Assembly (NCBI RefSeq): GCF_000379625.1
Contig: NZ_KB903217.1
Location: forward strand, 265,816-329,815
Direction: 5' to 3'
DNA: 64,000 bases
DNA from: Actinomycetospora chiangmaiensis DSM 45062
GTDB lineage: Bacteria; Actinomycetota; Actinomycetes; Mycobacteriales; Pseudonocardiaceae
Shown: positions 10,015-58,415 of the stretch, one piece after another
Layout of the letters: the number at the start of each line of letters is the position of its first letter
Numbering within the stretch: the stretch's first letter is position 1
Made by a program: the position numbers and the translations under genes
Notes under the pieces: model-generated
The model's input: only the letters and a program-made list of their open reading frames with translations
Database searches by the model: none
Told to the model about the DNA's origin: nothing

Positions 10015-10773
10015 TCACATCGTGAGCAGCGGGATCACGCTCGCGGCCACCGCCGCGGCGCCGACCACGACCCCGGTCGCCGCGAGCGTGCGCCGCGGGC
10101 GCTGCCGACCGAGCCCGAGCGCGGCGGTGCCGGTGCCGAGCAGGGCGACGGCGAGCACCCCGAGCAGCGTCGTGCGGGATCCGCCCGGAGTGGCCACGGC
10201 GGCCGCGACCACGGCGGCCACGAGAGCCACGACGGACACCGTGGCGCCGAGCACGGCCGGCTCCGACCCGGTCCCCGGGCCGTCGGGCAGGGCGCCCCGA
10301 CCGGGCCGCGCGACCAGATCGGTGACGGCGTCCTCGGTCTCCGGGCGGGTCTGCGGCCGCGCGCCCGGGTGAGCCGTCGGGCGGGCCTCCGGGTGCGTCT
10401 CCCGGTGCACCTCCGCGACCTCGCGCACCGGCGTGGTGACAGCGGCACCGGAGCGACCCGTCGTCGGGACGGGAGCCCCCGGACGCGGGCGGGACGCGGC
10501 CTCGCGGGCCGCCTCGACGCGGGCGAGCGAGCGCACCGGGAGGCCGCCGGTGCGCGCCGGCTCGGCGTCGTGACCCGGCTCGGGGCGGGCGCGCCGGTGC
10601 CGCGGCGCGCCGACCAGCGAGGACGCCGCGAGGACCGGCGCACCTCCCTCGGCGTCGGGACTGCGGTGCCGGCCCCGCGTCGGCGACTCCTCCGGGTCAC
10701 CGCCGGCGCCACCCGGTCTCGCCACCTGGACGGACACCCGACCGGGGCCGCGACGGTCCGACGGGCGCGACAT
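10015..10773 (-). CDS. Membrane protein with long disordered N-terminus, unknown
   Basis: 252 residues. The first 160 are rich in Pro, Arg, Gly, Ala and Glu with no hydrophobic segment and are probably disordered. Three hydrophobic helices follow: SVVALVAAVVAAAVA, TLLGVLAVALLGTGTAAL and TGVVVGAAAVAASVIPLL. A pro-rich cytoplasmic tail plus a small C-terminal membrane domain is common among unnamed actinobacterial proteins. A copy of the 14-bp motif ACCCGYCGTCGGGA lies in it at 10456-10469. No partner or function can be inferred. Confidence 0.65.
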   Translation of the reverse strand: MSRPSDRRGPGRVSVQVARPGGAGGDPEESPTRGRHRSPDAEGGAPVLAASSLVGAPRHRRARPEPGHDAEPARTGGLPVRSLARVEAAREAASRPRPGAPVPTTGRSGAAVTTPVREVAEVHRETHPEARPTAHPGARPQTRPETEDAVTDLVARPGRGALPDGPGTGSEPAVLGATVSVVALVAAVVAAAVATPGGSRTTLLGVLAVALLGTGTAALGLGRQRPRRTLAATGVVVGAAAVAASVIPLLTM

Positions 10774-10845
10774 GACTACGGGATCCCTCCGGCGGTGAGA
10801 CGAGGTGGTGACCTCGCCGGAAGATCGACGCCGACGGCCGGCGCG

Positions 10846-11856
10846 TTACCCCGTCGTGACGCGGTCGGGACCCTCCTGCAGCCGGTGCCACGCCATCGCG
10901 AGCTGCGTCGCGACGGGCCGCACGACCCGGACGTCGTTCCAGTAGAACGGGTGGACCAGCGGGGTCCAGCCGAGCCACCACGGCGCCACCGCGACGGTGC
11001 GGTCGGCGACGACGGCCTTCGCGTACGCGTCGTTCAGGGGGCGGATCGGGGCGGCGATGACGTCGTCGGGGTCCCAGTAGTTGACCCACTCGCCGCCGGC
11101 ACCGGGGTGCCGGAGGTCCAGCTGCGGGTGGGGCACCGTGATCGGCGTGCCGAAGTCGGGGTGGCGCTGGGCGAACAGCGCGAGCGGCGAGCCCAGCGTG
11201 TAGAGCCAGCCGAGGGTCTCGCCGCGCTCGGCCGGCGTGTCGCCCAGCTCCGCGGCGACCTCGGGCGCCACCCCGGCCGACCCGTCGGGGTGCAGCCCGC
11301 CCGCGACCTGCAGGTCGTAGAAGAAGTTGCTCGCGACGACGGAGCCCAGGGAGTGCGCCAGCACGCACAGCGGGGCGTCCTCGCCCGCCTCGGTCGCGAG
11401 GTCGTGCAGCGACCGCGCGAGCACCCGGTGCACGCCGTCGTAGAGCGCCCGGTCGACCGCGCCGGCCTGGTAGCTGATCGCGTCGCCGAGGTAGTGCACC
11501 ACCAGCCAGCGCAGCGTCGGGTAGTGGAAGTCGGGGCTGCCAGGCAGGCTGCGGACCAGCCCGGACGCGACGAGGCCCAGCAGGGCGGCCACCGAGCCCC
11601 GGTCGGTCGCGCTGCCGAGGGAGTCGAGCAGGTCGAACACGCCCTGCGCGCGGGCGCCGCCCATCCGGCGCAGCAGCGCGTCCTGCCGCCCCTCGTACAC
11701 CGGCGCCCAGAACGCGGTCCGCAGCACGAGCGCCTCGTCGGCGTCGACGCCGGCGATGCGGGTGAACTCGGTCCGCAGCAGGTCCATCGAGGTGTCCGCG
11801 AAGCGGGCGTCGGCGATCTCGACCCCGTGCACCCACATCACCGCGAGACGCGTCAC
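10846..11856 (-). CDS. Alpha/beta-hydrolase family protein
   Basis: 336 residues, cytosolic. The frame begins LAVMWVHGVE, a typical first strand with oxyanion region, and carries the nucleophile elbow AHSLGSVVAS (about residues 155-164). The later ITVPHPQLDLRHPG and YWDPDDVIAAP region has the Asp, and a conserved His follows near HPFYWND. The substrate is unknown; the fold is that of lipase/esterase-like proteins. The GTG start overlaps the upstream antiporter stop by four bases, so the two are translated together. The frame runs open upstream but only as the antisense-free overlap of the antiporter gene. Confidence 0.8.
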   Translation of the reverse strand: MTRLAVMWVHGVEIADARFADTSMDLLRTEFTRIAGVDADEALVLRTAFWAPVYEGRQDALLRRMGGARAQGVFDLLDSLGSATDRGSVAALLGLVASGLVRSLPGSPDFHYPTLRWLVVHYLGDAISYQAGAVDRALYDGVHRVLARSLHDLATEAGEDAPLCVLAHSLGSVVASNFFYDLQVAGGLHPDGSAGVAPEVAAELGDTPAERGETLGWLYTLGSPLALFAQRHPDFGTPITVPHPQLDLRHPGAGGEWVNYWDPDDVIAAPIRPLNDAYAKAVVADRTVAVAPWWLGWTPLVHPFYWNDVRVVRPVATQLAMAWHRLQEGPDRVTTG

Positions 11857-14437: not shown

Positions 14438-14467
14438 ACCCGACGTCGGGAACTAGGGTTCGCCGCC

Positions 14468-16174: not shown

Positions 16175-19100
16175 GTGGTTTCCCCCGCCCGCTGGCAGCC
16201 CTCGCGCGCCGGGATCCTGAACGTCTACCAGTACCAGGACGAGGTGCTGGAGTTCGGCGGCGGCCGGTTGCTGCTGCGCGGCGTCAACGGCTCGGGCAAG
16301 TCGACGGCGATGAACATGCTGCTGCCGTTCCTGCTCGAGGCCGACGTCCGCAAGATCGACGCGGCCGGCGAGCAGCGGGGGGTGCTGCGCTCCTGGATGC
16401 TCTCCGACAACGACGACACGCAGCGCACCGGCTACCTGTGGATCGAGTTCGTCCGCGACGGCGAGTACCGCACCGTCGGCTGCGGGATCCGCGCCAACCG
16501 GTCCACCGACCGCGTCACCACCTGGTGGTTCTCCACCGACCGCCGGGCCCGCCTGGACTTCCGGCTCACCGAGGCCGACGTCCCGTTCTCGGTCGACGCG
16601 CTGCGCGCCGAGCTCGGGGTGCGGGGCCAGGTGTTCACCTCCACCGCGGAGTACCGCGCCGAGATCGCGCGCCGCTTCTTCGGCGGGACCGACCCGACGG
16701 CCTACTTCCGGCTGCTCCACCAGGTGCGGAACCCGCGCGTCGGTGACCGCATCGACACCGATCTGCCCCGCACGCTGCGCGAGGCGCTGCCGCCGGTGCC
16801 CGAGGACGCGGTGAACGACGCCGCCCAGCCGCTGGAGGACCTCGAGGACCACCGGCGCAACGTCACCGACCTGGCCGCGACGGCGACGGCGCTCGACGGG
16901 GTCGTGGAGGTCTACACCGACTACGCGCGCCGGGTGCTCATGACGGCGGTGGAGGCCGCGGCGTCGGCGGTCGACGCGGCCCGCACCGCGGGGCGGCGCG
17001 TGGAGCGCGACCGGGCCGGGGCGCAGCGTGCGGGGACGGTCCGCGACGAGGCCGTGCGCGTGGTCGGCGAGCTGGCCGACGAGCACGCGCGGGCCACGTC
17101 CGAGCGGCAGGGCCTGGTGAGCCTGCCGGAGTACTCCGCGCACGCCGACCTCGTGCGGCGCCGCGACGAGCTGGCCCGCGCCGACGAGGCCGCCGGCACG
17201 CTCGACGGCGTCCGCACCCGCGCCCTGGCCCGCGTCACCACCGCCACCGCGGGCGCGACGGCGGCGAAGGGCCAGGTGGAGTCCGACCTCGCCGGGATCG
17301 CCGAGCACCTCCGAGGCGTGACGACGGCCGCCCGCACCGCCTCCGCCCCCGTCCGCCTCCCCGACCCGCCTGCGCTCGCCACCGAACCGCAGGACGACGC
17401 CGCGAGCGGCACCGCCGTGGACGTCCCGGAGGACGACCTCGACCCCGTCGACGACCTGCCGGTGGCCCTGGTCGCCGTCGGCGACGGCCTGCGGGCCCAC
17501 CGCACCACCGTGCGCGAGCTGCGGGAACGCGCCGCGGCGGCGGACCGGGAGACGGCCGCCGCCGACCGCGCCGACACCGAGGCCGCCGAGGCAGGCGAAC
17601 GCGCCGCCGAGGCCGCCGAGCAGGCCGACGTCGCCCGCCGCGCCGCCCGGGTGGCCGCCGACGAGCACGCGGCCGCGGTCGGTTCCTGGCACGAGCGGCT
17701 CGTCGCGCACGTCGCGGCGGTCCCCGCGGCCGAACCGGACGGTGCCGCCGGGTGGCTGGCCCTCCGGGCCGGCCCCGACGACGCCGAGGCCTCCGACGAC
17801 CTGCGCGCCCGCGCCGAGAGCCTCGTCGGCGCCGTGCGGCGCGTGGCGGACGAGGCCTCCGGCGCGCTCGCCGCGGCCCGCAGCCGGGCCACGGCCCGCG
17901 TCGGCGAGGCCGACGACGAGCTCACCGCCCTGCGCGCCGAGCACGCCCGGGTCGAGGCGGCGGGCGAGCTCCCCCTGCCCCGTGAGCCGTGGCGCACCGA
18001 CACCGGGGTCGGGGACGCCGCCCTGTTCGCCTCGCTGGTCGACTTCGCCGACGACCTCGACGCCGCGGGACGGGCGGGCCTGGAGGCGGCGCTGGAGGCG
18101 TCCGGGCTGCTCGCAGCACGTGTCGACGCCGACGGCCACGTGCTCGGCGCGGACGGCGAGCTGTTCCTGACGACGGGTGTCGCGGCGGCCGGGGCGGGTC
18201 CCCGACTGGTGCCGGTGGACACCGGCACGGTGCCGGTCGACGTCGTGGCCGGCGTGCTCGCCGCCCTCGGGACGACGCCGGGCGACGCCCTGTGGGTCGG
18301 TGAGGACGGCTCGTTCGGGGCGGGACCGCTGCGCGGGCGGCACACCAAGCCGGCCGCCGAGTACGTCGGAGCCGGGGCACGCGAACAGGCCCGTGCCCGT
18401 CGGCTGGCGGAGCTCGCCGCGCTGGTGGCGGACGCCGAGGCGCGCCTGGCCGCCGCGCGGGCCGTCGCGGCCGCCCTCGACGAACACGCCGACGGGTTGC
18501 GCCGCCTGGTCCGGGAGCTCCCCGGCACGCGCACCGTCGACGACGCGGTGGTGGCCGCGACCGGCGCCGCCCGGTACGCGCAGGAGGCGCAGGGACGGGC
18601 GGCGGAGCGGACCGCGGCAGCCGCCGAGACCCGTCGTCGGGCCGACGACCTCGTCGCCCGTCTGCAGCAGCAGGCGGCCGAGACCGGCCTGTCGACCGAC
18701 CCCGGGCGGCTCGAGGGCCTGCTGGAGGCGGTCACGGACGCCGAGCGGGCCCTCGCCGCCGTCGACTCCGCGGTGGAGCGCACGCGGCGCAGCGTGCGGT
18801 CGTGGCGCGAGGCGATCGCGGGCTGGGACCGCGAGGTGGCCGACCTGGCCGCGGCGGTGGCCGACCATCGGGGCGCCGCCGGGCACGCCGCCGCCGTCCG
18901 CACGGAGCTGGAGACCGCCGAGTCGGCGCTGGGCGAGGAGCCGGCGAAGGTCGCCGCCCGGGTCTCGGAGCTGGACACGCACCTCCGGGAGACCGCCGCC
19001 CGGCTCGACGCGGCCCGCGAGGAGCAGACCGGGGCGACCGTCGCCGTCCGGGAGGCGGAGCTGCGCGTGGAGGCGGCCCGCGAGACGCTGGTCGAGCGGG

Positions 19101-20368
19101 AGAAGGCGGCCGTCGGGGGTCGGGCCCGCCTGGTCGACGCGCTCGAGGTGCCCGGTCTGTTGGCCGCGGCGGAGCGGCCGGACGACGAGGCCGCTGCGAC
19201 CGGACGAACGGGCCGTTCATCACCCTCGATCGTGACCAACGGCCCTGTCGTGTCGGACAGCGAGGCGGAGGACGGCGGCACCGACTGGTCCGAGGAGCCG
19301 ATCCCGGTCACCCCGGACTCCGTCGAGGGCGCGGCGGAGCTGGTCGACGTGCTGCGCGCCCGGCTCGCGGCGCCCCGCCGTCAGGTCACCGAGGACGCCC
19401 TGGAGAAGGCGCTGCGGGAGACCCGGGACCACCTGGCGTCGGGGTGGGACATCGAGTCCCGGCGCGGCGCCGACGGCACCCCGCTCGCCGTGCACGTCAC
19501 CGGCCCGACCCGCGCGGTGCTGGCGCAGATGGTGCACCGCGTCGCGGTCCAACGGCGGCGCGCGACGAGCCTGCTGTCGGCCCAGCAGGACCAGGCGCTG
19601 CGCAACCTGCTGCACGGCCGGATCGCCCGGGAGGTCGCGGACGCGCTGTTCGCGGCCGGCGAGCTCGTGGACCGGATGAACCGGATCCTGCGCGGCGTCA
19701 CCTCCAGCCAGGGCATCGGCGTGCGGCTGCAGTGGCGCCCGCGCGGGGACCTGGAGAGCGAGACGGCCACCGCCCTGGTGCTGCTCGGCAAGCACCCCGA
19801 CCTGCGCTCGCCGGAGGAGGACGACCAGGTCCGGGAGGCGGTGAAGAGCCTCGTCGAGCAGGCGCGGACGGCCGACCCGGAGGCGTCGTACCGGTCGGTG
19901 ATCGGCGACGTCCTGGACTACCGGACGTGGCACGAGATGCGGATCTACCTGCGGCGGCCGGGGCGCAACGACGAGCTCCTCACCCGGCGGACGACGCTCA
20001 GCGAGGGCGAGAAGAAGCTGGTCACCGTGCTGCCGATGGCCAGTGCGGCCGCCGCCAGCGCCGCCGCGCACGACCCGCACGGCGTCGGCGCGCCGCGGCT
20101 GGTGCTGCTCGACGACGCGTTCGCGAAGGTCTCGGAGGACAACCACGCGAAGCTGTTCGGGCTGCTCGTCGACCTCGACGTGGACTTCGTGGTCACCTCG
20201 GAGCGGCTCTGGGGGACGCACCCGAGCGTCCCCGAGCTCGCGATCACCGAGGTGCTGCGGGACCCGGAGCTGCGCGCGATCGCCCTGGTGCACTACCGCT
20301 GGAACGGGTCCGAGCTGTCGGTGGGAGACGCGGCGGAGCGGAGCTCGATCCTGGGCAGGGGCGCATGA
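16175..20368 (+). CDS. jetC: JetC-like SMC ATPase of a Wadjet-type system (TIGR02680 family)
   Basis: About 1,397 residues. It has an SMC/Rad50-type split ATPase: Walker A GVNGSGKS (residues 36-43), a central Ala/Glu/Arg-rich coiled coil of about 1,000 residues with a hinge-like domain near 600-720, then the signature TLSEGEKKL (about 1,272) and Walker B LVLLDDAF (about 1,309). In Wadjet systems JetC extrudes DNA loops with JetA (kleisin) and JetB (KITE), and JetD cuts the recognised plasmid. Start GTG 16175 is chosen because the conserved N-terminus follows at once; the open frame reaches 16061. Oddities: residues about 1,010-1,026 are encoded by repeat family D, and the last 15 residues (VGDAAERSS...) by a degenerate repeat family C. 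JetA follows with an ATGA overlap. Confidence 0.92.
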   Translation: MVSPARWQPSRAGILNVYQYQDEVLEFGGGRLLLRGVNGSGKSTAMNMLLPFLLEADVRKIDAAGEQRGVLRSWMLSDNDDTQRTGYLWIEFVRDGEYRTVGCGIRANRSTDRVTTWWFSTDRRARLDFRLTEADVPFSVDALRAELGVRGQVFTSTAEYRAEIARRFFGGTDPTAYFRLLHQVRNPRVGDRIDTDLPRTLREALPPVPEDAVNDAAQPLEDLEDHRRNVTDLAATATALDGVVEVYTDYARRVLMTAVEAAASAVDAARTAGRRVERDRAGAQRAGTVRDEAVRVVGELADEHARATSERQGLVSLPEYSAHADLVRRRDELARADEAAGTLDGVRTRALARVTTATAGATAAKGQVESDLAGIAEHLRGVTTAARTASAPVRLPDPPALATEPQDDAASGTAVDVPEDDLDPVDDLPVALVAVGDGLRAHRTTVRELRERAAAADRETAAADRADTEAAEAGERAAEAAEQADVARRAARVAADEHAAAVGSWHERLVAHVAAVPAAEPDGAAGWLALRAGPDDAEASDDLRARAESLVGAVRRVADEASGALAAARSRATARVGEADDELTALRAEHARVEAAGELPLPREPWRTDTGVGDAALFASLVDFADDLDAAGRAGLEAALEASGLLAARVDADGHVLGADGELFLTTGVAAAGAGPRLVPVDTGTVPVDVVAGVLAALGTTPGDALWVGEDGSFGAGPLRGRHTKPAAEYVGAGAREQARARRLAELAALVADAEARLAAARAVAAALDEHADGLRRLVRELPGTRTVDDAVVAATGAARYAQEAQGRAAERTAAAAETRRRADDLVARLQQQAAETGLSTDPGRLEGLLEAVTDAERALAAVDSAVERTRRSVRSWREAIAGWDREVADLAAAVADHRGAAGHAAAVRTELETAESALGEEPAKVAARVSELDTHLRETAARLDAAREEQTGATVAVREAELRVEAARETLVEREKAAVGGRARLVDALEVPGLLAAAERPDDEAAATGRTGRSSPSIVTNGPVVSDSEAEDGGTDWSEEPIPVTPDSVEGAAELVDVLRARLAAPRRQVTEDALEKALRETRDHLASGWDIESRRGADGTPLAVHVTGPTRAVLAQMVHRVAVQRRRATSLLSAQQDQALRNLLHGRIAREVADALFAAGELVDRMNRILRGVTSSQGIGVRLQWRPRGDLESETATALVLLGKHPDLRSPEEDDQVREAVKSLVEQARTADPEASYRSVIGDVLDYRTWHEMRIYLRRPGRNDELLTRRTTLSEGEKKLVTVLPMASAAAASAAAHDPHGVGAPRLVLLDDAFAKVSEDNHAKLFGLLVDLDVDFVVTSERLWGTHPSVPELAITEVLRDPELRAIALVHYRWNGSELSVGDAAERSSILGRGA
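19204..19251. repeat. Repeat family D copy inside jetC
   Basis: 48 bp with arms ACGAACGGGCCG (19204-19215) and CGGCCCTGTCGT (19240-19251) around a 24-base middle. The copy at 21880-21927 has the same length and the same left arm. It adds 16 codons in frame (TGRSSPSIVTNGPVV region) to the coiled-coil part of JetC, just before a Glu/Asp-rich linker. Confidence 0.75.
20323..20358 (+). repeat. Degenerate single copy of repeat family C at the 3' end of jetC
   Basis: GGGAGACGCGGCGGAGCGGA and GCTCGATCC match the 36-bp units at 49589-49768 at about five sixths of positions. It is read in the same frame (GDAAERSS versus GDAAQRSS) and ends 10 bp before the stop codon. Confidence 0.6.
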
Positions 20369-21865
20369 GTTCGACGATCCGGCCGGTCGTCTTCTCCTAC
20401 GTCACCGAGTCGCCGGACTACCGCTGGATCCTCGGGGTGTTCGCGGGGGACCTTCTTCGCGGAGCTGACGCCGGGGGAGGTCACCGCGCGGCTCGCGGAG
20501 ACCGGGCACGAGCTGGACGAGCCCACCGTCAAGATCCGGCTCGACCAGCTGCGGGTGTGGGGCAACCTCGAGGTGTCGGCGTCGGTCGGGCAGGTCGGCA
20601 CGGTCGAGGACTACTACCGTCGCCGCGACCGCTACCTGATCACCCGCGTCGGGCAGGAGGTGCACGACCTCGTCGAGGGCGTCCTCGCGCAGGTCGACGA
20701 CGTGCGCGACGTGTCGCTCGGCCGGCTCGACCAGCTGCGCACCGCCCTGGAGGAGCTGGGCAGGCTCGACGCGGCGACCGCCCCGCCGGACCGGCTCGCC
20801 GCGGCCGTGCGGGCGGTGTTCGACCCGCACGTGGCGTTCTCCGCCGAGATCACCCAGTTCTTCGCCGCCATCAACCAGTGGCAGTCCCGCTTCGACCTCG
20901 ACGAGGACGAGTTCGCCTTCTTCTCCGAGGTGCTGGTCGGCTACGTCGGCGAGCGGCTGGAGACCCTGCACCGCGCGGCCCGCCCGATCGCCGTCCTGCT
21001 CGGCGAGCTCGCACCCGTCGTCGGGACCCTGGTGGAGCGCGCGGCGGACGGCCTCGCGGCCCGGGTGGCCGCCGCCGGCCTGTCGACCGTCCGGGTGCGC
21101 CGCGCGCCCGGAGCGGCCGTCGCCGACTGGGAGAACCTGGCGTCGTGGTTCGTCTCGACGTCGGGCCGCCCGAGCCGCGTCCAGACGCTGGAGCGGGACG
21201 CGGTCGACGCCGTCCGGACCCTCACCCAGAACCTCACGCGGCTCTCCCGCACCGGGACGGCGGGGTCGTCGCGGCGGGTGGACTTCCTGCGGCTCGCGGG
21301 GTTCTTCGCGCACGCCCCGGCGCCGCGGGCGCACGAGCTCGCCGCGGCGGCGTTCGGGCTCTACGGCGCGCGCCACCTCGGCGGCGCCGGCGGCGACGAC
21401 ACCGACCCGGTGGACGCCGCCGTGTCGTGGTGGGACGCGCCGGTCGCGACGATCCCGGTGTCACTGCGCGAGCGGGGGGACACGACGAGCCGCGGTCGCA
21501 CCTCGCGGGTGCAGGACCGCACGCAGGAGCGGCGGCACCTGCTCGCCCGGAAGGCGGAGGTCGAGAAGCGGGCCGCGGCGGCCCGGGCGGAGCTGCTCGA
21601 GGTGGGCGCCGCCGGGTTCACCGCCCGGCTCTCCGAGCCCGCGCTGCGGGAACTGCAGAAGGTGCTCACCCGCGCCGTCGCGGACCTCGGCCCGGCCTCG
21701 GCGTCGGGCAGGGGCGAGCGGAGCGACGGGGAGGTGGGGAGCATCGTCCTGGACGGCGTGCGCTGCGAGGTCCGCCGTGCCCCCGGTACGACGACGAGCG
21801 TGCCCACCCATGCGGGCGCGCTCCGCGTCGAGGGGCTGGCCCTGACGGTGGAGGCGGCGCCATGA
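20365..21865 (+). pseudogene. jetA: JetA-like kleisin of a Wadjet-type system (TIGR02677 family), frameshifted
   Basis: The ATG (20365) overlaps the jetC stop. The first frame reads MSSTIRPVVFSYVTESPDYR and WILGVF, then leaves the family sequence; the rest, from FFAELTPGEVTARL through VWGNLEVSASVG and VEDYYRRRDRYLITR to the end, is in the next frame. Dropping one G from the run at 20445-20449 restores a 499-residue protein with ...FAGTFFAELTPGE. JetA is the kleisin-like subunit that bridges the JetC heads. As written the product is truncated, unless ribosomes slip at the G run, translation restarts (an alternative GTG at 20555), or the extra G is a sequencing error. The C-terminal Arg/Glu-rich helical region (RTQERRHLLARKAEVEKR) is intact. 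Next gene jetB. Confidence 0.85.
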
Positions 21866-21950
21866 GGGGCCGCATCCGTACGAACGGGCCGCTCAGCACG
21901 GTCGTCCGTGACGCCCGGCCCGTTCGTCCCGGTGGAGGCGGCGCCGTGAG
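21846..21950. repeat. Repeat family D copy flanked by 21-bp direct repeats
   Basis: The direct repeats CGGTGGAGGCGGCGCCRTGA at 21846-21866 and 21930-21950 differ at one base and lie 84 bp apart. Between them is a family D palindrome (21880-21927) with perfect 12-bp arms ACGAACGGGCCG and CGGCCCGTTCGT around 24 bases. The first direct repeat holds the jetA stop (ATGA). The pattern fits a duplication made on insertion, or a local tandem duplication. Confidence 0.7.
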
Positions 21951-22019
21951 CTCGTCCTCGGTGAACGAACGCAGCAGCTGTGCGCGCGGACGTGCCGCTC
22001 CTTCGGAACGGGTGGCCCC

Positions 22020-23276: not shown

Positions 23277-23708
23277 ATGGACGTGATGGCACGGATCGCG
23301 GCAGCGGTCGAGCTCGGCCATGCCGGTGCCGTCGAGGAGGCCCGGCAGCAGTTGGTCGCGCTGTGGGCGGAGCCGGTGGTGCAGGCCGATCCGTTCCACC
23401 GGTGCGCGCTCGCCCACCATGCGGCCGATCTCGAGCCGGAGGTGGCCGACGAGCTCCGGTGGGACGTCCGGGCCCTGGCCGCGGCCGACGAGGTCGCGCG
23501 GGAGCGGGACACGCCGACCGACGTCGCGGCGTTCTACCCGTCGCTGCACCTCAATCTCGGCGATGCGTACCGGCGTGCCGAGGACCTCCCGGCTGCCCGC
23601 GAGCATCTCGCGCGGGCGCGGTCGTGCATCGACGTCCTTCCCGACGACGGGTACGGGCGGCTGATCCGAGGCGGGATCGACCGGCTCGCCGAGCGGCTGG
23701 GCGCGTGA
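23277..23708 (+). CDS. Small TPR-like protein, unknown role
   Basis: 143 residues, all helical. LHLNLGDAYRRAEDLPAAREHLARARSCID near the C-terminus has the spacing of a tetratricopeptide repeat, and the N-terminal VELGHAGAVEEARQQLVALW is a second weak repeat. Such proteins are common in actinobacteria as unnamed binding proteins. It does not look like the missing JetD: it is too small and has no TOPRIM acidic motif. A copy of the 14-bp motif is at 23639-23652. The start at 23277 is preferred over upstream in-frame codons inside repeat B. Confidence 0.75.
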   Translation: MDVMARIAAAVELGHAGAVEEARQQLVALWAEPVVQADPFHRCALAHHAADLEPEVADELRWDVRALAAADEVARERDTPTDVAAFYPSLHLNLGDAYRRAEDLPAAREHLARARSCIDVLPDDGYGRLIRGGIDRLAERLGA

Positions 23709-26623: not shown

Positions 26624-27769
26624 CTACTCGTGCAGCGCCTCCCGGCCCACCCGCAGGCTCGCCGCGTCGGCCGCCTCCCGGCCCGCCCGCCAGCCCGCGG
26701 CGTTGCCGACCGAGAACCGCTTCGTGGTCAACCGGGGGAAGAGCTCGGCGACGGTGCGCTCCACGACCTCCCCGCGCGCCGCGAGCACCGGCAGCAGGGC
26801 GTCCCCGCTCTCCGCGCGGGCGGCCGCCTCCGCCGCCTCGCCCGCCGCCCGCAGGCGCTCGCCGATCCGCGTGGCGTAGGAGAGCAGGAAGGCGTGCCGG
26901 AACGAGCGGGTGCGCGATCCGCTCCCCGCCCCCGCCATCGCCCGTCCGGCCTGGACCAGCAGCGAGGTGGTGAGCAGTTCGACGGTGTCGAGGTCGGTCG
27001 GGTGGCCGACGACCGTCACGAGGTCCAGCGCGTCCAGGCTGACCGCCCGGCACCGGTTCGCGCCGGCGACCTGGTGGCACAGCGAGGACTTCGCCGAGGT
27101 GTAGGGCAGGTCGAGCCAGAGCCGGCGCACACCCGCCGTCGGGACGGCCTCCGCGGCGCCGGTGACCGTCGCAGCCGCGAGGGCGTGGCGGGCCATGAGC
27201 TCCTGGGCCTTGGCCGAGAGGGCCTCGGCCTCCTCCGCGAACGTGGTCGACTCCGCCTTGGCCAGCAGGCCGCGCACCCGCGCGAGGACCTTCGGGTCGA
27301 TCCCGGACGTGTCCGGTTCCACGGCCGGCGCCGCGGGCAGCGGGGGCAGGGACAGCATCGTCCCGACGAGGCGCAGGACCGCCCCGAGACCGTCGACACC
27401 GGTCCGCGCGCGCCAGCTCGTCAGCAGGGGGACGTCCCCCGGGACCGTCTCGACGCCCGTGCGCCACGTGGCGGGCCGTCGCACCGCGTCCGTGGCAACG
27501 AGCTCGGCGGCCAGCGGCGCGGTGGTGGCACCGATCCGGCGCCGGACGACCTCGACGAGGTCACGCGGGGTCCAGCCCCGGGCCCAGAGCGGGTCGACCG
27601 CGTCGAGCATCGCCCGCTCGGCCGCCGGGTCCAGCGCGGCGTCCGGGACCCGGCCGGCGAGGACGGCGCGGGCCCCCGCGAGCGCGTCGGGCGTGAGCGG
27701 CCGCCGGGCCAGCTCGGTGATCAGCGCGGCCGCCACGGCGACCTGGTCTCGGGACTCGTACGCGGCCAT
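26624..27769 (-). CDS. DUF2786-domain protein
   Basis: 381 residues, cytosolic. The DUF2786 element is the helix IDPKVLARVRGLLAKAESTTFAEEAEALSAKAQ region (near residues 160-195), which in this family lies in front of a putative peptidase-like or nucleic-acid-associated domain; here YTSAKSSLCHQVAGANRCRA follows, and RSFRHAFLLSYATRIGERL closes the domain. Function is unknown. The start MAAYESRDQ at 27769 is preferred over an upstream in-frame codon because it follows a compact divergent spacer; that spacer (27770-27894) serves also the 631-residue protein on the other strand. A copy of the 14-bp motif is at 27131-27144. Confidence 0.75.
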   Translation of the reverse strand: MAAYESRDQVAVAAALITELARRPLTPDALAGARAVLAGRVPDAALDPAAERAMLDAVDPLWARGWTPRDLVEVVRRRIGATTAPLAAELVATDAVRRPATWRTGVETVPGDVPLLTSWRARTGVDGLGAVLRLVGTMLSLPPLPAAPAVEPDTSGIDPKVLARVRGLLAKAESTTFAEEAEALSAKAQELMARHALAAATVTGAAEAVPTAGVRRLWLDLPYTSAKSSLCHQVAGANRCRAVSLDALDLVTVVGHPTDLDTVELLTTSLLVQAGRAMAGAGSGSRTRSFRHAFLLSYATRIGERLRAAGEAAEAAARAESGDALLPVLAARGEVVERTVAELFPRLTTKRFSVGNAAGWRAGREAADAASLRVGREALHE

Positions 27770-29797: not shown

Positions 29798-30559
29798 CTA
29801 CGAGACCGCGGCCAGCGACCCGTCGTCGGGAAGGGCGTACTTCTCGCGGAGGAACCGCTCGGTGTAGAGGTGCTCCGCGGCCTCGAGGACGTTCCCGACC
29901 TGGCGGGCCGAGAGCCACACGCCGAGCCCGATGCCGATGGCGGGCAGCGGCCGGACCACGACGGGCGGGGCAGGGGCGAGGCCCGCGGCGAGGACGGCGA
30001 GGGCGAACTCGCGCTCGTCGGGTTCGGCGCAGTCGTAGCCGTAGTGCGCGGCGACGCGGGCGACGGCCCGGGCGCAGGTCGCCGTGGTGAGCACGGTGTC
30101 CAGGGCGAGGGCGGCGACCCCCGCGACGAGGCCGGTCGCGGCCCCGGACGCCCCGGCCGCGGCGCCGGCGGCCGCGCCGCCGAGACCGCCCCGCAGGCCC
30201 GCGGCGGCCACGTGCACCCGGCCCAGGGAGCCCCGGACGGCGCGGAGGTCGTCGACGTCGAGGTGGCGCAGGTCGGTCAGGGCGGTGACCTCGTGCCCGG
30301 CCTCGACGAGCACGGCCAGGACCCGGTCGGCCCGCCCCGCGGTCCACCAGCCGAGGGCCAGTCCGGCCTCGCGCAGGGGCTCGCCCACGACGCCGACCAC
30401 CGCGGTCTCGACGAGCTGGTCGACGATCCCCGCACCGGGGACGTGCCGCAGCCCGCTCACGACCCACGAGCCGAGGCGGCCCCACCACCCCGGCCCGGCG
30501 TCGGCCCGCGACCGCCACCGCTCCACGGCGTCCCAGGCGCGCGCGTCCCCGTCGGACAT
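29798..30559 (-). CDS. EcsC-family protein
   Basis: 253 residues. Shared with the following paralogue are a central membrane-active helical region (AAGLRGGLGGAAAGAAAGASG... LVAGVAALALDTVLTTATCARAVARVAAHYGYD) and the C-terminus LGVWLSARQVGNVLEAAEHLYTERFLREKYALPDD. EcsC is the third gene of the Bacillus ecs ABC cluster; its role is not known, and here no ABC genes are present. The start at ATG 30559 begins SDGDARAWDAVERW. The 14-bp motif is at its 3' end (29818-29831) and encodes the PDDG part. It is tandem with the EcsC gene at 30670, 110 bp away. Confidence 0.8.
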   Translation of the reverse strand: MSDGDARAWDAVERWRSRADAGPGWWGRLGSWVVSGLRHVPGAGIVDQLVETAVVGVVGEPLREAGLALGWWTAGRADRVLAVLVEAGHEVTALTDLRHLDVDDLRAVRGSLGRVHVAAAGLRGGLGGAAAGAAAGASGAATGLVAGVAALALDTVLTTATCARAVARVAAHYGYDCAEPDEREFALAVLAAGLAPAPPVVVRPLPAIGIGLGVWLSARQVGNVLEAAEHLYTERFLREKYALPDDGSLAAVS

Positions 30560-30669
30560 GCAGCCGACCCCCGCCACGATCACGGACCGGACGGTAGGGA
30601 GGTCGGAGGGCGACGCCGTGGAGGACATGTGGCCGGCGGGTGAACCGGCGGTATCGCTCCAGGGGCGGA

Positions 30670-31632: not shown

Positions 31633-32216
31633 GTCACGGACGGTACCCATTTCCCGCCGTCGTACGTCACGACGACGTCCACGGCGGCCCGGGTGCCCTC
31701 GCTCGCCGCGAGGGCCTGCTCCTGCCGTTCGAAGGCGGCGCGGTGCGGCGCGTAGGTGGCCCAGTCCTCGCGGCCCCGCAGCCGGGCGCCCCGGTCCGCG
31801 GCCGGGGCGTCGACCCACACCGACAGCGACGCGGCGTCCCGCAGCGGGCGTGCCGCCGCGCCGACGCCCTCGAGGACCAGCAGCCCGGACACCACCCGCC
31901 GTCGGGACGGGGCGACCTCACCGCGGCGCCAGTCCCAGGGCGCGACCTCGGGGACGTCGCCCCGGCGCAGTGGCTCCAGCAGCTGGTCGGCGGCCCGGAC
32001 GGGGCCGGCCGCGAGCCCGTCCCAGCCGAGGTAGAAGGGCTCGATCGACTGGACGGTCACCTGGCGATCGGCGCGGCGCAGCGCGCGCGCCAGCGTCGTC
32101 TTGCCGGCGCCGGAGAAACCGTCGATGACGACGAGGACGGTCGACCCGACCCGCCGTCGGGACGCGCGGGCACGGGCGAGCAGGCCGGCGGGAGAGGTGG
32201 GGTCGATGCCGCTCAG
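31629..32216 (-). CDS. Uridine-kinase-like P-loop protein with an apparent CTG start
   Basis: About 195 residues. The Walker A motif GFSGAGKTT and the segment TVLVVIDG before it are encoded in frame upstream of the first ATG/GTG (GTG 32060), which would cut the P-loop off. The only start-like codon before the P-loop in this frame is CTG at 32216; ATG, GTG and TTG are absent. Downstream are FYLGWDGLAAG, VVSGLLVLEGVGA (Walker B-like) and VSVWVDAPAADRGARL, which fit a uridine-kinase-type nucleoside kinase. Start and product are therefore uncertain: CTG initiation, a leaderless transcript, or a sequence error are alternatives. Two 14-bp motifs lie in it (31894-31907, 32149-32162). Confidence 0.7.
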   Translation of the reverse strand: MSGIDPTSPAGLLARARASRRRVGSTVLVVIDGFSGAGKTTLARALRRADRQVTVQSIEPFYLGWDGLAAGPVRAADQLLEPLRRGDVPEVAPWDWRRGEVAPSRRRVVSGLLVLEGVGAAARPLRDAASLSVWVDAPAADRGARLRGREDWATYAPHRAAFERQEQALAASEGTRAAVDVVVTYDGGKWVPSVT

Positions 32217-42177: not shown

Positions 42178-42274
42178 CGCAGCGGAGCTCGACCGTCGGG
42201 CCGGAGACGTAGCGCAGCGGAGCTCGACCGTCGGGCCGGAGACGTAGCGCAGCGGAGCTCGACCATCCGGGCCG
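42168..42274 (+). repeat. Repeat family C array, three tandem 35-bp units
   Basis: Units start at 42168, 42203 and 42238, each GGAGACGTAGCGCAGCGGAG followed by CTCGACC(G/A)TC(C)GGGCC. The first supplies the stop codon (TAG 42175-42177) of the gene at 41548. The remaining part up to the next gene (42275-42356) shows only a ribosome site GGGAGGGGAG. Confidence 0.9.
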
Positions 42275-42930: not shown

Positions 42931-45900
42931 ATGGCGCTCCACGTCCACCGCGCCGAGCGGGCGGACACCCTCGCGGAGGCGCTGGCGGCCGTCCTGGCCG
43001 CGCCGCCGGAGGACCCGTTCGCGCCGGACGTCGTGGCCGTGCCCACGCGCGGCGTCGAGCGGTGGCTCGCGCAGCGCCTCTCCCACCACCTCGGGGCCGC
43101 CGCGGGGGACGACGGGGTCTGCGCCAACGTGCGCTTTCCCCCGCCGCGCGAGCTGGTGCGTCGCGCGCGGGGCCTTCCCGACGACGGGTCGTGGCGGCCC
43201 GAGCGGCTCGTCTGGCCGCTGCTGGAGACGATCGACGCCTGTGCGGGCGAGACCTGGCTGGCGCCGCTGGACACCTATCTCGGCGTGGTGGGCGACGCGA
43301 CGGGCACCCGCGCGGGCCGGCGCTTCGCCGCGGCGCGCCACCTCGCGCGCCTGTTCGACACCTACGCCGAGGACCGGCCGGCCATGGTGCGGGCGTGGGC
43401 GGAGAAGGACGACGGTGACGCCGCGGACGTCCCGGCCGACCTGCGCTGGCAGCCCGAGCTGTTCCGCCGGCTCCGCGACCGCCTGGGCGAGCCGCACCCG
43501 GCGGAGACGCTGCCCGGCGCCGCGGTGGGCGGCGGTGCCGCGGGCGGCGGTGCGGTGGGCGGCGACCTGCCCGCGCGGCTCTCGGTGTTCGGGCCCACCC
43601 GGCTGACCACCACCGAGCTCGCGGTCCTCGACGCGCTGGGAGCGGACCGCGAGGTCCACCTGTGGCTGCCCCACCCCTCGCCCGCGCTCTGGGAGGCGGT
43701 CCGTGGCGCCGGCCCGGTGGCGCGGCGCCGGGAGGACCCGACGGCGGACGTGGCCGCCCACCCGCTGCTGCGCTCCCTCGCGCGTGACGCCCGTGAGCTG
43801 CAGCTCCGGCTGCCGGCCGACGTGCACGAGGTGCACCACCCGGCGTCGGGAAGGACGCCGGCGACGCTGCTCGAGCAGCTGCAGGACGACCTCCGGCACG
43901 ACCGCGCGCCCGCCGCGGTCGACCTGCCGCCCGACGAGAGCGTGGTGGTCCACTCCTGCCACGGCCCCGACCGGCAGGTCGAGGTGCTGCGGGAGGCGGT
44001 CCTCGGGCTGCTCGTCGACGACCCGACCCTCGAGCCGCGGGACATCGTCGTCATGTGTCCCGACGTCGAGACGTTCGCGCCGCTGATCACGGCCGCGTTC
44101 GGCGGCGAGGACACGGCCCGCGCGCACCCCGGCCACCGGCTGCAGGTCCGCGTGGCCGACCGCGCGCTCACCCAGGTCAACCCCGTGCTCGGCGTCCTCG
44201 GCACGGTGCTCGACCTGGCGGACGCCCGCCTCACCGCGAGCGAGCTGCTCGACCTCGCGGAGAGCGAGCCCGTCCGGCGCCGGTTCCGCTTCGACGCCGA
44301 CGACCTCGAACGGCTGCGGGTCCTCGTCGCCCGCGCCGGTGTCCGCTGGGGCCTCGACCGGGCCCACCGCGCCGACTACAAGCTCGGCCGCATCGGCGAG
44401 AACACCTGGGAGGCCGGGCTGGACCGGCTGCTCGTCGGCGTCGCCATGTCCGGCGACGAGCAGGTGTGGCTCGACTCCGCGCTGCCCCTCGACGAGGTCG
44501 ACTCCCGCGACGCCGACCTCGTCGGGCGCCTCGCCGAGCTGGTCGACCGGGTGGCCGAGGTGCTCGGCCGGATGCGCGGTCCCGCGGCCGACGGCGGGCA
44601 GCCGCTGGGAGCGTGGCTCGACGCACTGACGTGGGCGCTCGACGCCCTCACGGCCACGGTGCCGGCCGACGTCTGGCAGCTCACCCAGGCCCGGGCGGTC
44701 CTCGCCGACGTCCGCGACACGGCCTCGGCCGCGGCGCCGCCGGTACTGACGCTGCACGACGTCCGCGCCGTGCTGTCCGACCACCTCGCCGGCCGCCCGA
44801 CCCGCGCGAACTTCCGCACCGGGACGCTCACGGTCGCCACCCTGCTGCCGATGCGGGGCGTCCCGCACCGGGTCGTGTGCCTGCTCGGCCTCGACGACCA
44901 GGTGTTCCCCCGCGAGCGCGCCACCGACGGCGACGACGTGCTCGCGCGCGACCCGCACGTCGGCGAGCGGGACGCCGCCGCGGAGGACCGGCAGCTGTTC
45001 CTCGACGCCGTCATGGCGGCCACCGAACGGCTGGTCGTCGTGCACTCCGGCGCCGACGAGCGCACCGGGGCGTCCCGGCCGCCCGCCGTGCCCGTCGGCG
45101 AGCTGCTCGACACCCTCGACGCCACCGCCAGGATCGGCGGCCGCCCGGCCCGCGAGCACGTCGTGCGCCGCCACCCGCTGCAGCCCTTCGCCCCGGGGAA
45201 CTTCCGGACGGCGGGGGCGCGTCCCTTCAGCTTCGACGCGGGCGCGCTCGACGGTGCCCGGTCGCTGGTGTCCGGACGGCGGATCCGGCCGGTGTTCCTG
45301 GAGGGTCCGTTGCCCGCCCGCGCGGGGCCGGAGGTCGACCTCGCCGACCTCGTCAAGTTCGTGGAGCACCCGGTCCGGGCGTTCCTGCGCCAACGGCTCT
45401 CGCTGATCGCCCGGGGCGAGGAGGAGGAGCCCGACGAGGCGCTGCCCGTCGCGCCGGACTCCCTCGCGACGTGGGCCATCGGGGAGCGGCTGCTCGCCGA
45501 CCGGTTGGCGGGGCACGACGTCACCGCCTGCATGGAGGCCGAGCGCCGTCGCGGCACCCTGCCGCCGGGGGCGCTGGGGGTGGCCCTGCTCCGGCGGGTC
45601 GGGAAGCAGGCCGAGGCCATCAAGGTCGTCGCCGACCCGGTGTGGGCCGAACCGGCGCGCGACCTCACCGTCACGGTGCCGCTCGACGACGCCACCGTGG
45701 TCGGCACCGTCCCCGGGGTCCGGGGCACCACACTCGCCGCGGTGAGCTTCTCCCGGCTCGCCCCGAAGCACCGGGCCGTCACCTGGGTGCAGCTCCTCGC
45801 CCTCGCCGCCGCGTACCCCACGGGGCGGTGGTCGGCGGTCACCATCGGCAAGGGCGGCCGGGACGAGCCGACCGCCCGGGCCGACGTCACCGGCATCACC

Positions 45901-49200: not shown

Positions 49201-49787
49201 ACCTGACCGGGAGCATCGACGCGGTCCTGCGCGACCCCGACGGACGCTTCGTCATCGTCGACCACAAGACGAACTGGCTCGGCCCCATCGCGACGACGGG
49301 GGTCCCGGACCCGTTGACCACCGCGCACTACGGCCCGGAGCAGATGCGCAGCGCGATGATCCGGGCCCACTACCCGCTGCAGGCGATGCTCTACGGGGTC
49401 GCACTGCACCGCTTCCTGCGCTGGCGGGTGCGGGGCTACGACCCCGAGCGGCACCTCGGCGGCGTCGCGTACCTGTTCCTGCGCGGCATGTGCGGCCCGG
49501 ACACCCCGGTCGTCGACGGCACCACGAGCGGGGTGTTCCGGTGGTGGCCGCCCGCGTCGCTGGTGGTCGCGGTGTCGGAGCTGCTGGCGGGAGACGCAGC
49601 GCAGCGGAGCTCGACCATCGGGGCGGGAGACGCAGCGCAGCGGAGCTCGACCATCGGGGCGGGAGACGCAGCGCAGCGGAGCTCGACCATCGGGGCGGGA
49701 GACGCAGCGCAGCGGAGCTCGACCATCGGGGCGGGAGACGCAGCGCAGCGGAGCTCGACCATGACGGCGGGGAGGACGGCGCCGTGA
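46239..49787 (+). CDS. recB: RecB helicase-nuclease subunit with repetitive C-terminal tail
   Basis: 1,182 residues. Walker A is ASAGTGKT (26-33); Walker B/motif II VLVDEFQDTDP (about 265-275); later helicase motifs include HKCKGLEFPVVYVPFG and LRLLYVALTRARSQVVAWW. The nuclease domain near the C-terminus holds VIVDHKTNWLG (catalytic Asp about 1,007 and Lys about 1,009) and LQAMLYGVALHRFLRWR. The family is about 1,100 residues; the extra length is a tail of five 12-residue units (GDAAQRSSTIGA, residues 1,118-1,177) encoded by repeat family C. The start overlaps recC by four bases and recD begins in an overlap at 49784. The tail's effect on complex assembly is unknown. Confidence 0.95.
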   Translation: MTALTAPARAFDVLGELPAGTTVLEASAGTGKTYTIAALAARYVAEGRAELDQLMLVTFGREATRELRERVRERFVAVERALRSDDVPADPVTALIVGVDPAERARRRRRLAHALAHFDTATIATTHQFCQDMLAGLGVAGDTDADAVFVESIDDVVAEVVDDFYVRAYAPEGAGPPAFDHATALVLGRAAIGDPTAVLAPAPGEASGPADARARFAAAVRAEVERRKRTRRLFTFDDMLTRLHAALTDPVLGEAARARLRERYRVVLVDEFQDTDPMQWDILRVAFHGHCLLTVIGDPKQAIYAFRGADVVSYLAAADSADSRATLAVNHRSDAGLLAALDRVFGGAALGDDRIVVRPVGAAHPDPRLAGAPVDTPFRLRVLPRAGLRANWRTGLPEIGPVREAVVADLVADLTALLAADSTWDGRSLGPGDVAVLVRTNVQADQVRDALAEAGVPAVLAGAASVFSTAAAREWLALLEALEQPGRATRVRAAALTCFVGTRAADLDTDGWTGANAALLAEVGEHLRRWAAVLRDRGVAALLEAVSTTTDLTRRVLGTVGGERLLTDVRHVGQVLHAQASAGRLGVVAITEWLRLRIVEAEGRRADARPERTRRLESDADAVQILTVHKCKGLEFPVVYVPFGWDRWVKDTPEEVLHHDAAGRRVRAVGGPSEGAAWHEHCRAHRHEDDGEDLRLLYVALTRARSQVVAWWAPSVHTAASALNRLLRSPGRGPGREPDAMVTLAEDVAVLDELTALAGPDLAVEPVVSRPPVPYVPGAEERGTLAVARFDRELDLAWRRSSYSSLTADAHAAHAAETATSEPEESSLDDEGDLEVAAAAEEGLPSPMADLPVGPAFGVLVHTVLETVDTASGEFGPALVEAAAEALARRPVAGVGAAELAAALEPVLRTPVGTSSSGPWTYGDVVPADRLVELDFELPLAGGDHPAATTVTLGGAAALLRAHLPADDPLADYADVLEGLSGQVLRGYLTGSIDAVLRDPDGRFVIVDHKTNWLGPIATTGVPDPLTTAHYGPEQMRSAMIRAHYPLQAMLYGVALHRFLRWRVRGYDPERHLGGVAYLFLRGMCGPDTPVVDGTTSGVFRWWPPASLVVAVSELLAGDAAQRSSTIGAGDAAQRSSTIGAGDAAQRSSTIGAGDAAQRSSTIGAGDAAQRSSTMTAGRTAP
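49589..49768 (+). repeat. Repeat family C array, five 36-bp units in recB
   Basis: Units of GGGAGACGCAGCGCAGCGGA with GCTCGACCATCGGGGC start at 49589, 49625, 49661, 49697 and 49733; the fifth diverges at its end. They are read in frame as GDAAQRSSTIGA and end 19 bp before the recB stop. Confidence 0.95.
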
Positions 49788-52722: not shown

Positions 52723-52737
52723 ACCCGTCGTCGGGAA
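52723..52737. repeat. Intergenic copy of the 14-bp motif ACCCGYCGTCGGGA
   Basis: Exact copy ACCCGTCGTCGGGAA directly before the carboxylesterase stop in the 158-bp spacer 52583-52740, where nothing else is seen. The motif has nine further exact copies: 10456, 21013, 27131, 29818, 31894 and 32149 in this orientation, and 23639, 43176 and 56856 reversed. Confidence 0.85.
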
Positions 52738-55060: not shown

Positions 55061-55076
55061 CGACCGGATCTTCACG

Positions 55077-55993: not shown

Positions 55994-56007
55994 TACCGCA
56001 CCACCCC

Positions 56008-56045
56008 CGACGGCCCGACCACCCCCTGCGGTGGTCGGGCCGTCG
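56008..56045 (+). terminator. Hairpin terminator after rodlin-like genes
   Basis: A perfect 16-bp stem: CGACGGCCCGACCACC (56008-56023) and GGTGGTCGGGCCGTCG (56030-56045) with a 6-base loop, 15 bp after the stop codon. No T tract. Confidence 0.85.
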
Positions 56046-56081
56046 TGCGTCCGGGCCGGGGATCCGTGACAGGCTGGCCGG

Positions 56082-56726: not shown

Positions 56727-56825
56727 GGATCACCCACGCGGGTGGTGCGTCGCCGCATTCCTGAGGTGCATGTGGGTGACACAGTCTGCTCCGGCGCGGA
56801 TCGACGGTGGAGCGGAGGACGACGG

Positions 56826-58415
56826 ATGACGTCGCGGTGGTCGGCAACGCAGGGTTCCCGACGGCGGGTGCCACCGTCGGTGCCGCCGCGTCGTCGGCTG
56901 CGCCGGGTCCTGCTCGGGCTCGGGGCGTTCACCGCCCTCGCGGTGGCCGCGCCGGCGGCGGTCGCGGTGACCGAGCAGGCGCCGGTCACGGCGACGGCGG
57001 TGTCGTCGCTGCCGGCGGCCACGTTGCCGCCGGCGGACGCGACGGACCCGTCGATCACGCCGGTGCCGCTCGCCCCGCAGGGCCGGGACGGCACCGGGGC
57101 CCAGGTGGCGCGGTCCGCGGCGCCACTGCAGCTGGTCGCCGTCACCTGGCGGGGACCGGACCCGGACGCGATCTCGCTCCGGTCCACCGACGACAGCGGG
57201 GCGTGGGGCGCCTGGCTGCCGTTGGATGCGAACAGCGACGAGCGGGACGCCCAGGACGCGCAGCGGACGTCGACGACGCCGGGCGGGTCGCGGTCGTCGA
57301 CCGCGGCCCCCGGCGGCACCGACCCGGTGTGGGTGGGCGACCGGAAGGCCGTCGAGGTGCGCGCGACCCGGAACGGCGTGCCGGTGACCGACGGTCTCGC
57401 GGTGCAGCGCATCGACCCGGGGATGTCGGCCAACGACGACGCGATCGGGGCCCGCGCGCGGGAACGGCAGACCGCCGCCCGCGACGGCGCCCCCGCCGCC
57501 CCGGCCTACGTCACGCGGGCCCAGTGGGGCGCGGACGAGCGCATGATGACGTGGCCGCCGGAGTACACGCCGACCACGAAGGCGGTGACGATCCACCACA
57601 CCGCCGAGTCCAACGACTACAGCCCGGAGCAGTCGGCGGCCATCGTGCGGGGCATCTACGCCTACCACGCGAAGCAGAACGGCTGGGGCGACATCGGCTA
57701 CAACGCCCTCGTCGACAAGTACGGCACGATCTACGAGGGCCGGGCCGGCGGGCTCGACCGCCCGGTCGTCGCGGCGCACGCGGGCGGGTTCAACCGCGAG
57801 ACGTTCGGCATCGCGATGATGGGCAACCTCTCCGACGTCGCGCCGACGCCGGCCGAGCTCACCTCGGTGGAGAAGCTCGCGGCGTGGAAGCTCGGCGGGA
57901 TGTACCGCGACGTCTCCGCCAAGGTCGCGCTGACCTCCGCCGGCGGGGGCACCTCGAAGTACGCCAAGGGGACCCAGGTGACGGTGGACGCCGTCTTCGC
58001 CCACCGCGACGTCGGGAACACCGTCTGTCCGGGCAACGCCGGCTACGCCGCGATGGACGGCATCCGCGCCGAGGTCAACAAGCTCGTCGCCGCGGCCGGG
58101 ACCGACGTCCGGGCCGCCTGGGCCGACCGTCCCGAGCTCGGCGACCCCGACCGCGTCGAGCAGTCCACCGCCGACGGGCGCGGCCGGTTCACCGACTTCG
58201 CCCACGGGTCGGTGTACTGGTCGCCCGACACCGGCGCCCACGAACTCACCGGTCCGATCCTCGACGCCTGGCGGGCCCGCGGGGCGGACCGCTCGGAGCT
58301 CGGCCTGCCGACCGGCGAGGAGTTCACCACCGCCGCGGGCCGGGCACAGGCCTTCGAGCACGGTGTCCTGCGGTGGGACCGGACGAGCGGCGCGACCGAG
58401 ATCACGCCCGCCTGA
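56826..58415 (+). CDS. PGRP-type N-acetylmuramoyl-L-alanine amidase with LGFP repeats
   Basis: 529 residues. A signal peptide (LLGLGAFTALAVAAPAAVAV) and about 200 residues of a beta-rich, Ser/Asp/Thr-rich region lead to a PGRP/amidase_2 domain: YVTRAQWGADERM, VTIHHTAESNDY (zinc His), IYAYHAKQNGWGDIGYNALVDKYGTIYEGRAGG, and FAHRDVGNTVCPGN (zinc His and Cys). C-terminal LGFP-like repeats (GDPDRVEQSTADGRGRFTDF, GRAQAFEHGVLRW) probably bind the cell wall. It cuts the amide between muramic acid and L-Ala outside the cell. GGAGG (56814-56818) precedes ATG 56826. Confidence 0.93.
   Translation: MTSRWSATQGSRRRVPPSVPPRRRLRRVLLGLGAFTALAVAAPAAVAVTEQAPVTATAVSSLPAATLPPADATDPSITPVPLAPQGRDGTGAQVARSAAPLQLVAVTWRGPDPDAISLRSTDDSGAWGAWLPLDANSDERDAQDAQRTSTTPGGSRSSTAAPGGTDPVWVGDRKAVEVRATRNGVPVTDGLAVQRIDPGMSANDDAIGARARERQTAARDGAPAAPAYVTRAQWGADERMMTWPPEYTPTTKAVTIHHTAESNDYSPEQSAAIVRGIYAYHAKQNGWGDIGYNALVDKYGTIYEGRAGGLDRPVVAAHAGGFNRETFGIAMMGNLSDVAPTPAELTSVEKLAAWKLGGMYRDVSAKVALTSAGGGTSKYAKGTQVTVDAVFAHRDVGNTVCPGNAGYAAMDGIRAEVNKLVAAAGTDVRAAWADRPELGDPDRVEQSTADGRGRFTDFAHGSVYWSPDTGAHELTGPILDAWRARGADRSELGLPTGEEFTTAAGRAQAFEHGVLRWDRTSGATEITPA

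Follow-up and report, generated by a model that had tools for sequence, protein, structure and literature searches.

Why does one 14-base word, ACCCGYCGTCGGGA, recur throughout a 64,000-nucleotide stretch of the genome of Actinomycetospora chiangmaiensis DSM 45062 (contig NZ_KB903217.1, positions 265,816 to 329,815; hereafter the window), and what might read it? A sequence-only reading of the window had listed ten exact copies, and all ten were found at the coordinates and on the strands given. The expected number is 0 (no copy arose across 100 dinucleotide-preserving shuffles), and when up to one mismatch is allowed the window holds 25 copies versus 0.59 expected. Its G+C content, estimated earlier at about 73%, measures somewhat higher, at 75.6%. 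The word is very probably a genuine site at the DNA level, subject to selection or drive. As a whole statement, to which we give a probability of roughly 0.4, we favour a clade-specific, highly iterated recognition site on double-stranded DNA, the copies of which may have been spread by preferential uptake or exchange.

The site was refined to ACCCGNCGTCGGGA[A/C], about 15 bases with N at position 6 and A or C at position 15; with its edges the full consensus is [G/C]ACCCGNCGTCGGGA[A/C][G/C]. The 14-bp motif described at first is a real word, but its position 6 is N and not Y, and it is slightly too short. The core of the site is written CCCGNCGTCnnGA or CCCGNCGTCNNGA, and ACCCGTCGTCGGGAA is the sequence form of the site-bearing duplex. 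Single-change tables showed C2, C3, G5, C7, G8, T9 and C10 to be near-invariant, and the 1.08 Mb sampled from five species had almost no changes at positions 5, 7, 8, 9 and 10. Position 6 accepts any base but favours T and C, position 15 is mostly A and next C, position 11 accepts A and C, and position 4 accepts T less readily. The sequence common to the copies stops at about 17 bases, with unrelated flanks beyond. The site is near-palindromic yet not a palindrome, with A at both positions 1 and 14 and an asymmetric tolerance of change. Since the tolerated changes break the CCCG/CGGG pairing, a hairpin is probably not what is kept; likewise, the retention of A/T at positions 1, 9, 14 and 15 in DNA of 74% G+C suggests that GC-biased conversion is no explanation.

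The excess extends over the whole 5.86-Mb genome, in which ACCCGYCGTCGGGA occurs 636 times (324 and 312 copies on the two strands) and a reversed-pattern control occurs 0 times. The core is found at 1,883 places, about 1,700 above chance. Counting against a Markov background, as the sequence-only reading had advised, gave a large excess: in 464 kb of this genome (G000 in our sample of 18 Actinomycetospora genomes) there are 33 copies of the 14-mer ACCCGTCGTCGGGA versus 0.31 expected under an order-6 model, and the five-species sample of 1.08 Mb contains 103 copies of ACCCGNCGTCGGGAA versus 0.17 expected (order 5), a 609-fold excess. Codon usage had been named as a possible source of the copies, but 100 rounds of synonymous-codon shuffling of each called gene in the 464 kb left 0.51 coding sites on average, and never more than 2, versus 46 observed; in 460 kb of G003 the shuffles left 0.58 versus 46. 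Nor are the copies clustered in the window only, as 20 of the 21 stretches sampled from G000 and 22 of the 23 from G003 (42 of 44 together) contain strict sites. The reversed control, the Markov expectation and the shuffles rule out an artefact of composition or codons, and two congeners, G002 and G006, have counts at chance despite a similar G+C content in the sampled stretches.

Genes were called with a home-made caller, by which 89% of the G000 sample and 85% of the G003 sample are coding (85-93% overall). In G000, 46 strict sites lie within genes and 20 between them; the corresponding numbers in G003 are 46 and 23, with 2 more partly in genes, and the intergenic density is about three times that of genes. 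Twelve ACCCGNCGTCGGGA sites are present in the window:

10456..10469, plus strand: exact site ACCCGTCGTCGGGA, between called genes.
14438..14451, plus strand: site with N=A, ACCCGACGTCGGGA, intergenic, 16 bp ahead of the called start at 14468; also in G016.
21013..21026, plus strand: exact site within a DUF2397 / JetA2-like gene, in ungapped alignment to five relatives.
23639..23652, minus strand: exact site within a called gene; exact in G003 and G007 too.
27131..27144, plus strand: exact site within a DUF2786 gene, antisense.
29818..29831, plus strand: exact site close to the 3' end of a minus-strand gene called at 29798-30583.
31894..31907, plus strand: exact site within a minus-strand gene called at 31629-32060.
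32149..32162, plus strand: exact site between called genes.
43176..43189, minus strand: exact site within recC, antisense.
43838..43851, plus strand: site with N=G within recC; also in G001, G003 and G016.
52723..52736, plus strand: exact site, intergenic, 4 bp past the 3' end of a minus-strand gene.
56856..56869, minus strand: exact site just ahead of the called start (56880) of an amidase/LGFP gene, inside a longer open reading frame from 56742.

By these gene calls five of the twelve (10456, 14438, 32149, 52723 and 56856) are intergenic, where a single intergenic copy had been claimed, and the one-mismatch copy assigned to 43837 does exist but starts at 43838. The plus-strand region 16175-23177, to which the site at 21013 belongs, contains three adjacent genes matching the PADLOC Wadjet type II models JetC2, JetA2 (DUF2397) and JetB2; each of the three aligns to the five relatives with stretches that span it.

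Genic strict sites of G000 and G003 together are sense in 39 cases and antisense in 53, and on each strand two of the frames hold most of them. That the word is selected as DNA and not as protein is supported by this occurrence in both orientations and mainly two frames per strand, by the threefold intergenic density and by strict sites that are kept while their flanks drift. The density of strict sites is 177 per Mb in the least codon-biased fifth of genes and 42 in the most biased, a trend along which G+C also drops (0.753 to 0.712), so that the two causes are not separated in these figures.

A transcription or RNA-level element, such as a promoter, a terminator or a regulon operator, would account for the intergenic enrichment and for the modest orientation bias of intergenic sites relative to the nearest gene (34/50 strict, 50/77 relaxed). 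However, core sites number about 1,900 and most of the sampled strict ones are genic, in both orientations; no fixed distance of sites to gene starts or stops was found; and the CCCG/CGGG stem is broken by the substitutions that position 11 accepts. We regard such a role as very unlikely.

Replication strands were assigned in the single-contig genome G003 (dnaA at 4.537 Mb), of which 460 kb was sampled. Leading and lagging sites stood at 40:31 for strict sites (40/71, 95% interval 0.44-0.68) and at 72:83 for relaxed ones (72/155 leading), and the density from origin to terminus was roughly flat: the three bins into which 23 stretches were divided had 3.4, 2.6 and 3.3 strict sites for every 20 kb. 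The gaps among 67 relaxed sites over 260 kb fit an exponential distribution (Kolmogorov-Smirnov p 0.95), as in Poisson spacing. Neither the strand bias relative to the origin nor the preferred spacing that we had been advised to look for was therefore present, and a larger composite element, suspected from sites 155-174 bp apart, failed in a larger site set. Like KOPS (FtsK-orienting polar sequences) and the recognition sequences of FtsK- and TraB-type translocases, the word is a dispersed GC-rich one, and the TraB site of pSVH1 presumably starts with GACCCG, as do many copies here. KOPS, however, are strongly polar, and a signal of this type was rejected on the lack of origin-terminus polarity in G003. 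Sites of the parS, matS or occlusion type were rejected because no regional clustering was observed in the 23 G003 stretches, and the earlier suggestion of a chromosome-segregation site does not agree with the roughly flat density and the Poisson gaps, nor does a nucleoid macrodomain. A nucleoid or architectural protein bound evenly over the chromosome is a different case: the evenness with which core sites occur, about one every 3 kb in genic and intergenic DNA alike, and the retention of strict sites in position speak for it. Against it, there is no clear origin-terminus gradient, polarity or preferred spacing, which are features of most known segregation and occlusion sites, and a nearly invariant 15-base site would be unusually strict, so that we consider this explanation rather unlikely.

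Another suggestion of the sequence-only reading was a Chi-like recombination signal read by RecBCD. The word resembles Chi in being dispersed and asymmetric, its frequency of one site per 3-9 kb is comparable, and the window encodes RecC and RecB. Nevertheless, known Chi sites are just 5-8 bases long, about half the length of this word; the leading-strand enrichment is lacking in G003; and the word is limited to a clade although RecC, found in 17 of the 18 genus genomes, motif-poor ones included, is not. The identity of RecB, RecC and RecD to the motif-poor clade (63-66%) is like that of two comparable neighbouring genes in G002 (61 and 66%), with no accelerated divergence of RecBCD relative to them. 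The presence of RecC in motif-poor genomes and this ordinary divergence indicate that the location of recBCD in the window is probably coincidental, and a Chi-like function is distinctly unlikely. In the same region, a tandem 36-bp repeat (5 copies, GGTCGAGCTCCGCTGCGCT-type unit) is present at the 3' end of recB (49603-49787), and a tandem 35-bp repeat with a unit of the same type (3 copies) lies at 42181-42264, just past a gene ending at 42177.

The distribution within the genus is graded. A motif-rich clade comprises G000 (1,883 core sites), G001 (1,930), G003 (2,551), G007 (1,845) and G016 (1,959). Intermediate counts were obtained for G010 (528), G015 (597) and G014 (332, in an assembly 59% complete), and the other ten congeners, two of them with assemblies 83-84% complete, have 83-164 core sites, which is the chance level. 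Per base, the core count is about 12-17 times that of a motif-poor congener in the rich species and about 3.5 times in the intermediates. In a tree of RecC from 17 genomes, one fully supported branch separates five rich species and two intermediates from the rest, the branch that groups just the five rich ones is supported at 82/66, and the graded site counts follow the tree. Outside the genus, the 14-mer has at most five copies in 102 of the 120 relatives examined, and sharing with sister genera, which we had been advised to check, is not observed, since the 15-mer reaches at most 2 copies among 395 other genomes of the order. The preferred form may also differ within the clade, in the manner of dialects: position 1 is A in 73% of the core sites of G000 versus 57% in G003, and position 11 differs as well, but the G001 and G007 samples include loci picked for tandem arrays.

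Samples of 220 kb from G002 and from G006 held no word dispersed to a comparable degree, and 100 kb from each of four more distant genomes (G083, G074, G040 and G072) revealed, among the top words checked, no other dispersed motif of like strength, although an 8-base word could escape. The top over-represented words that were checked proved to be tandem or clustered (G006, G083, G074, G040, G072) or a sparse paired repeat (G002), present in 1-4 of 5-11 stretches. The G002 repeat consists of GTGAGCACTT-type words paired about 30 bp apart (L120 6003-6033, L121 17017-17047, L122 16328-16358). In G016 the word GCGGGCTGGCCGGG, unrelated to the motif, forms seven tandem copies 18 bp apart (L075 12859-12967), and in the 464 kb of G000 the word GGTCGAGCTCCGCT has 20 occurrences.

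The site at 21013 and other coding sites align without gaps to relatives lacking the site and differ from them by substitutions, which indicates that these sites were born by point change and not by insertion; some others, mainly intergenic or compared with distant relatives, align only with gaps. Insertion of a mini-element was rejected on the gapless coding alignments and the unrelated flanks beyond about 17 bases, and a dispersed mobile repeat of the REP (repetitive extragenic palindromic) or MITE (miniature inverted-repeat transposable element) kind on the lack of any longer common unit around the sites. In favour of a mobile source, a DDE transposase element of G003 (L217 3580-5290, L218, L219, L220) has tandem variant copies, a variable number of CCCGCCGTCAGGAA units, right behind the transposase stop. 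Taken together with the reversed control, the shuffles and the motif-poor congeners described above, these results make it highly improbable that composition, codon usage or a mobile mini-element accounts for the copies. The word GTGAGCACT/AGTGCTCAC is located at both edges of the transposase element (L217 near 3590 and 5290). Five tandem 16-bp motif units, partly degenerate, were observed in G000 (contig C1, L031 about 3854-3930), and one tandem array of the motif, a repeat inside a called gene, was seen in four genomes. Tandem arrays were rejected as the source of the dispersed copies, which they do not explain.

Once born, strict sites tend to stay. The identity of their cores is 0.97 in G001 (7 sites), 1.0 in G003 (10), 0.98 in G016 (8) and 0.87 in G007 (3), with flanks at 0.88, 0.83, 0.80 and 0.74, respectively. 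In the intermediates G010 and G015 the cores, at 0.65 and 0.63, are below their flanks (0.79 and 0.73; 4 sites each). All 10 positions are retained in G003 at 10 of 10 strict sites versus 0.28 for control words. Strict retention, for which control words were scored on an equal number of positions, is 8/12 from G000 to G003, and 8/10 in the reverse direction (control 0.22 in both); from G000 it is 5/9 to G016 (control 0.15), 3/7 to G001 (0.18), 2/5 to G007 (0.11) and 0/3 to each of G010 and G015. From G016 to G003 it is 3/8 (control 0.18), with the core kept in 8/8 and the differences at position 1 only.

The word may alternatively behave like HIP1 (highly iterated palindrome 1), with a modification enzyme or a mismatch-repair bias converting near-misses into the site, with or without a function for the organism. 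According to an excerpt of Elhai (2015; PMC4390886), HIP1 and the alternate HIPs of cyanobacteria are highly iterated and are gained and lost by lineage, a general behaviour that the word shares. PF02384 is matched in 4/5 motif-rich genomes (G000, G001, G016 and G007, the last two weak or partial), but also in 3/10 motif-poor ones, several matches being weak and partial, and it was not matched in G003, the genome with most sites. PF00145 is found in 2/5 motif-rich genomes (G000, G003) and 4/10 motif-poor ones, and PF01555 in 1/5 (G007) and 3/10, one of these below the cut-off; none of the three families was matched in the intermediates G010, G014 and G015. None of these methyltransferase families therefore tracks the motif convincingly, and the proposal of a modification target gained no convincing support from them. 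HIP1, moreover, is an 8-base palindrome linked to methyltransferases, and the site here is longer and non-palindromic. We judge a HIP1-like origin to be a minority candidate, on a par with the architectural protein.

A strict, asymmetric but strand-neutral word, evenly strewn over genic and intergenic DNA, kept in place and limited to a clade with a graded edge points to a recognition mark on double-stranded DNA, and it looks like a mark newly evolved in one Actinomycetospora branch. The strand symmetry, the spacing and the distribution together disfavour a polar Chi or KOPS signal, a segregation site, a regulon, a mobile repeat and a codon artefact. In the mechanism that we propose, a sequence-specific protein would read the site, and the carrying of many sites would be favoured by selection or biased replacement. 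Our guess is that the site labels DNA as self, to be preferentially taken up from, or exchanged with, close kin, as the DNA uptake sequences (DUS) of Neisseriaceae and the uptake signal sequences (USS) of Pasteurellaceae do; DNA bearing copies would be preferentially acquired and recombined, and the copies would spread and stay. With DUS and USS the word shares its asymmetry, high copy number, clade specificity and occurrence in both orientations, within and between genes. It differs in belonging to another phylum, in its length of about 15 bases, in its lower density and in the near absence of the inverted terminator pairs that are frequent there, though not required for uptake; a receptor and uptake are hypothetical for this word. 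An excerpt of a DUS study (PMC12616744) describes dialects that adhere to phylogeny and lengths of up to about 13 nt. Natural transformation occurs in Actinobacteria, according to partial text on Micrococcus luteus, and since DUS and USS fit most of the features, an uptake or exchange mark is our best single guess, although a tentative one. Next in rank come an architectural protein distributed evenly over the chromosome and a word driven by repair or modification.

Several results weigh against uptake or exchange. No reader protein was found: RecBCD, the three methyltransferase families and ComEC all fail to explain the difference between rich and poor species, ComEC being present in 16 of the 18 genomes, motif-rich and motif-poor alike. 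We know of no report of competence in Actinomycetospora. Conservation was scored on few strict sites (3-12 for each pair), pairs other than G000 and G003 show lower retention, and 30 looser core sites in the window barely exceed their near flanks (0.91 versus 0.88-0.89; G001 and G003), an excess small enough to show that sites do turn over. Interspecies identity is not higher 30-2,000 bp around the sites, which leaves no trace of local recombination, and among 330 relaxed sites of five species no inverted pair was closer than 72 bp; a single close inverted pair (21 bp apart) was seen in G015. A literature search for uptake sequences in Actinobacteria returned, in the text retrieved, nothing beyond one review and, with 20 of the 167 papers that name Actinomycetospora covered, nothing on this motif, and the core strings were found in no related context, one of them occurring in a plant paper represented by an excerpt.

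By what route a recognition word reaches hundreds of copies in a genome, and whether selection or biased replacement takes it there, is debated in the case of DUS and USS and an open question in that of HIP1. Rich, intermediate and chance-level species coexist in this one genus, so that gains can be placed on the tree and a reader gene can be traced by its presence and absence. A protein that reads a 15-base site would also serve as a useful reagent. If the word is, as we tentatively propose, a signature of self-DNA exchange, a 15-base mark spread by point substitution to well over a thousand positions in a single genus, it would be the first known to us in Actinobacteria, and two sister species caught midway would allow its origin and spread to be watched across living species.

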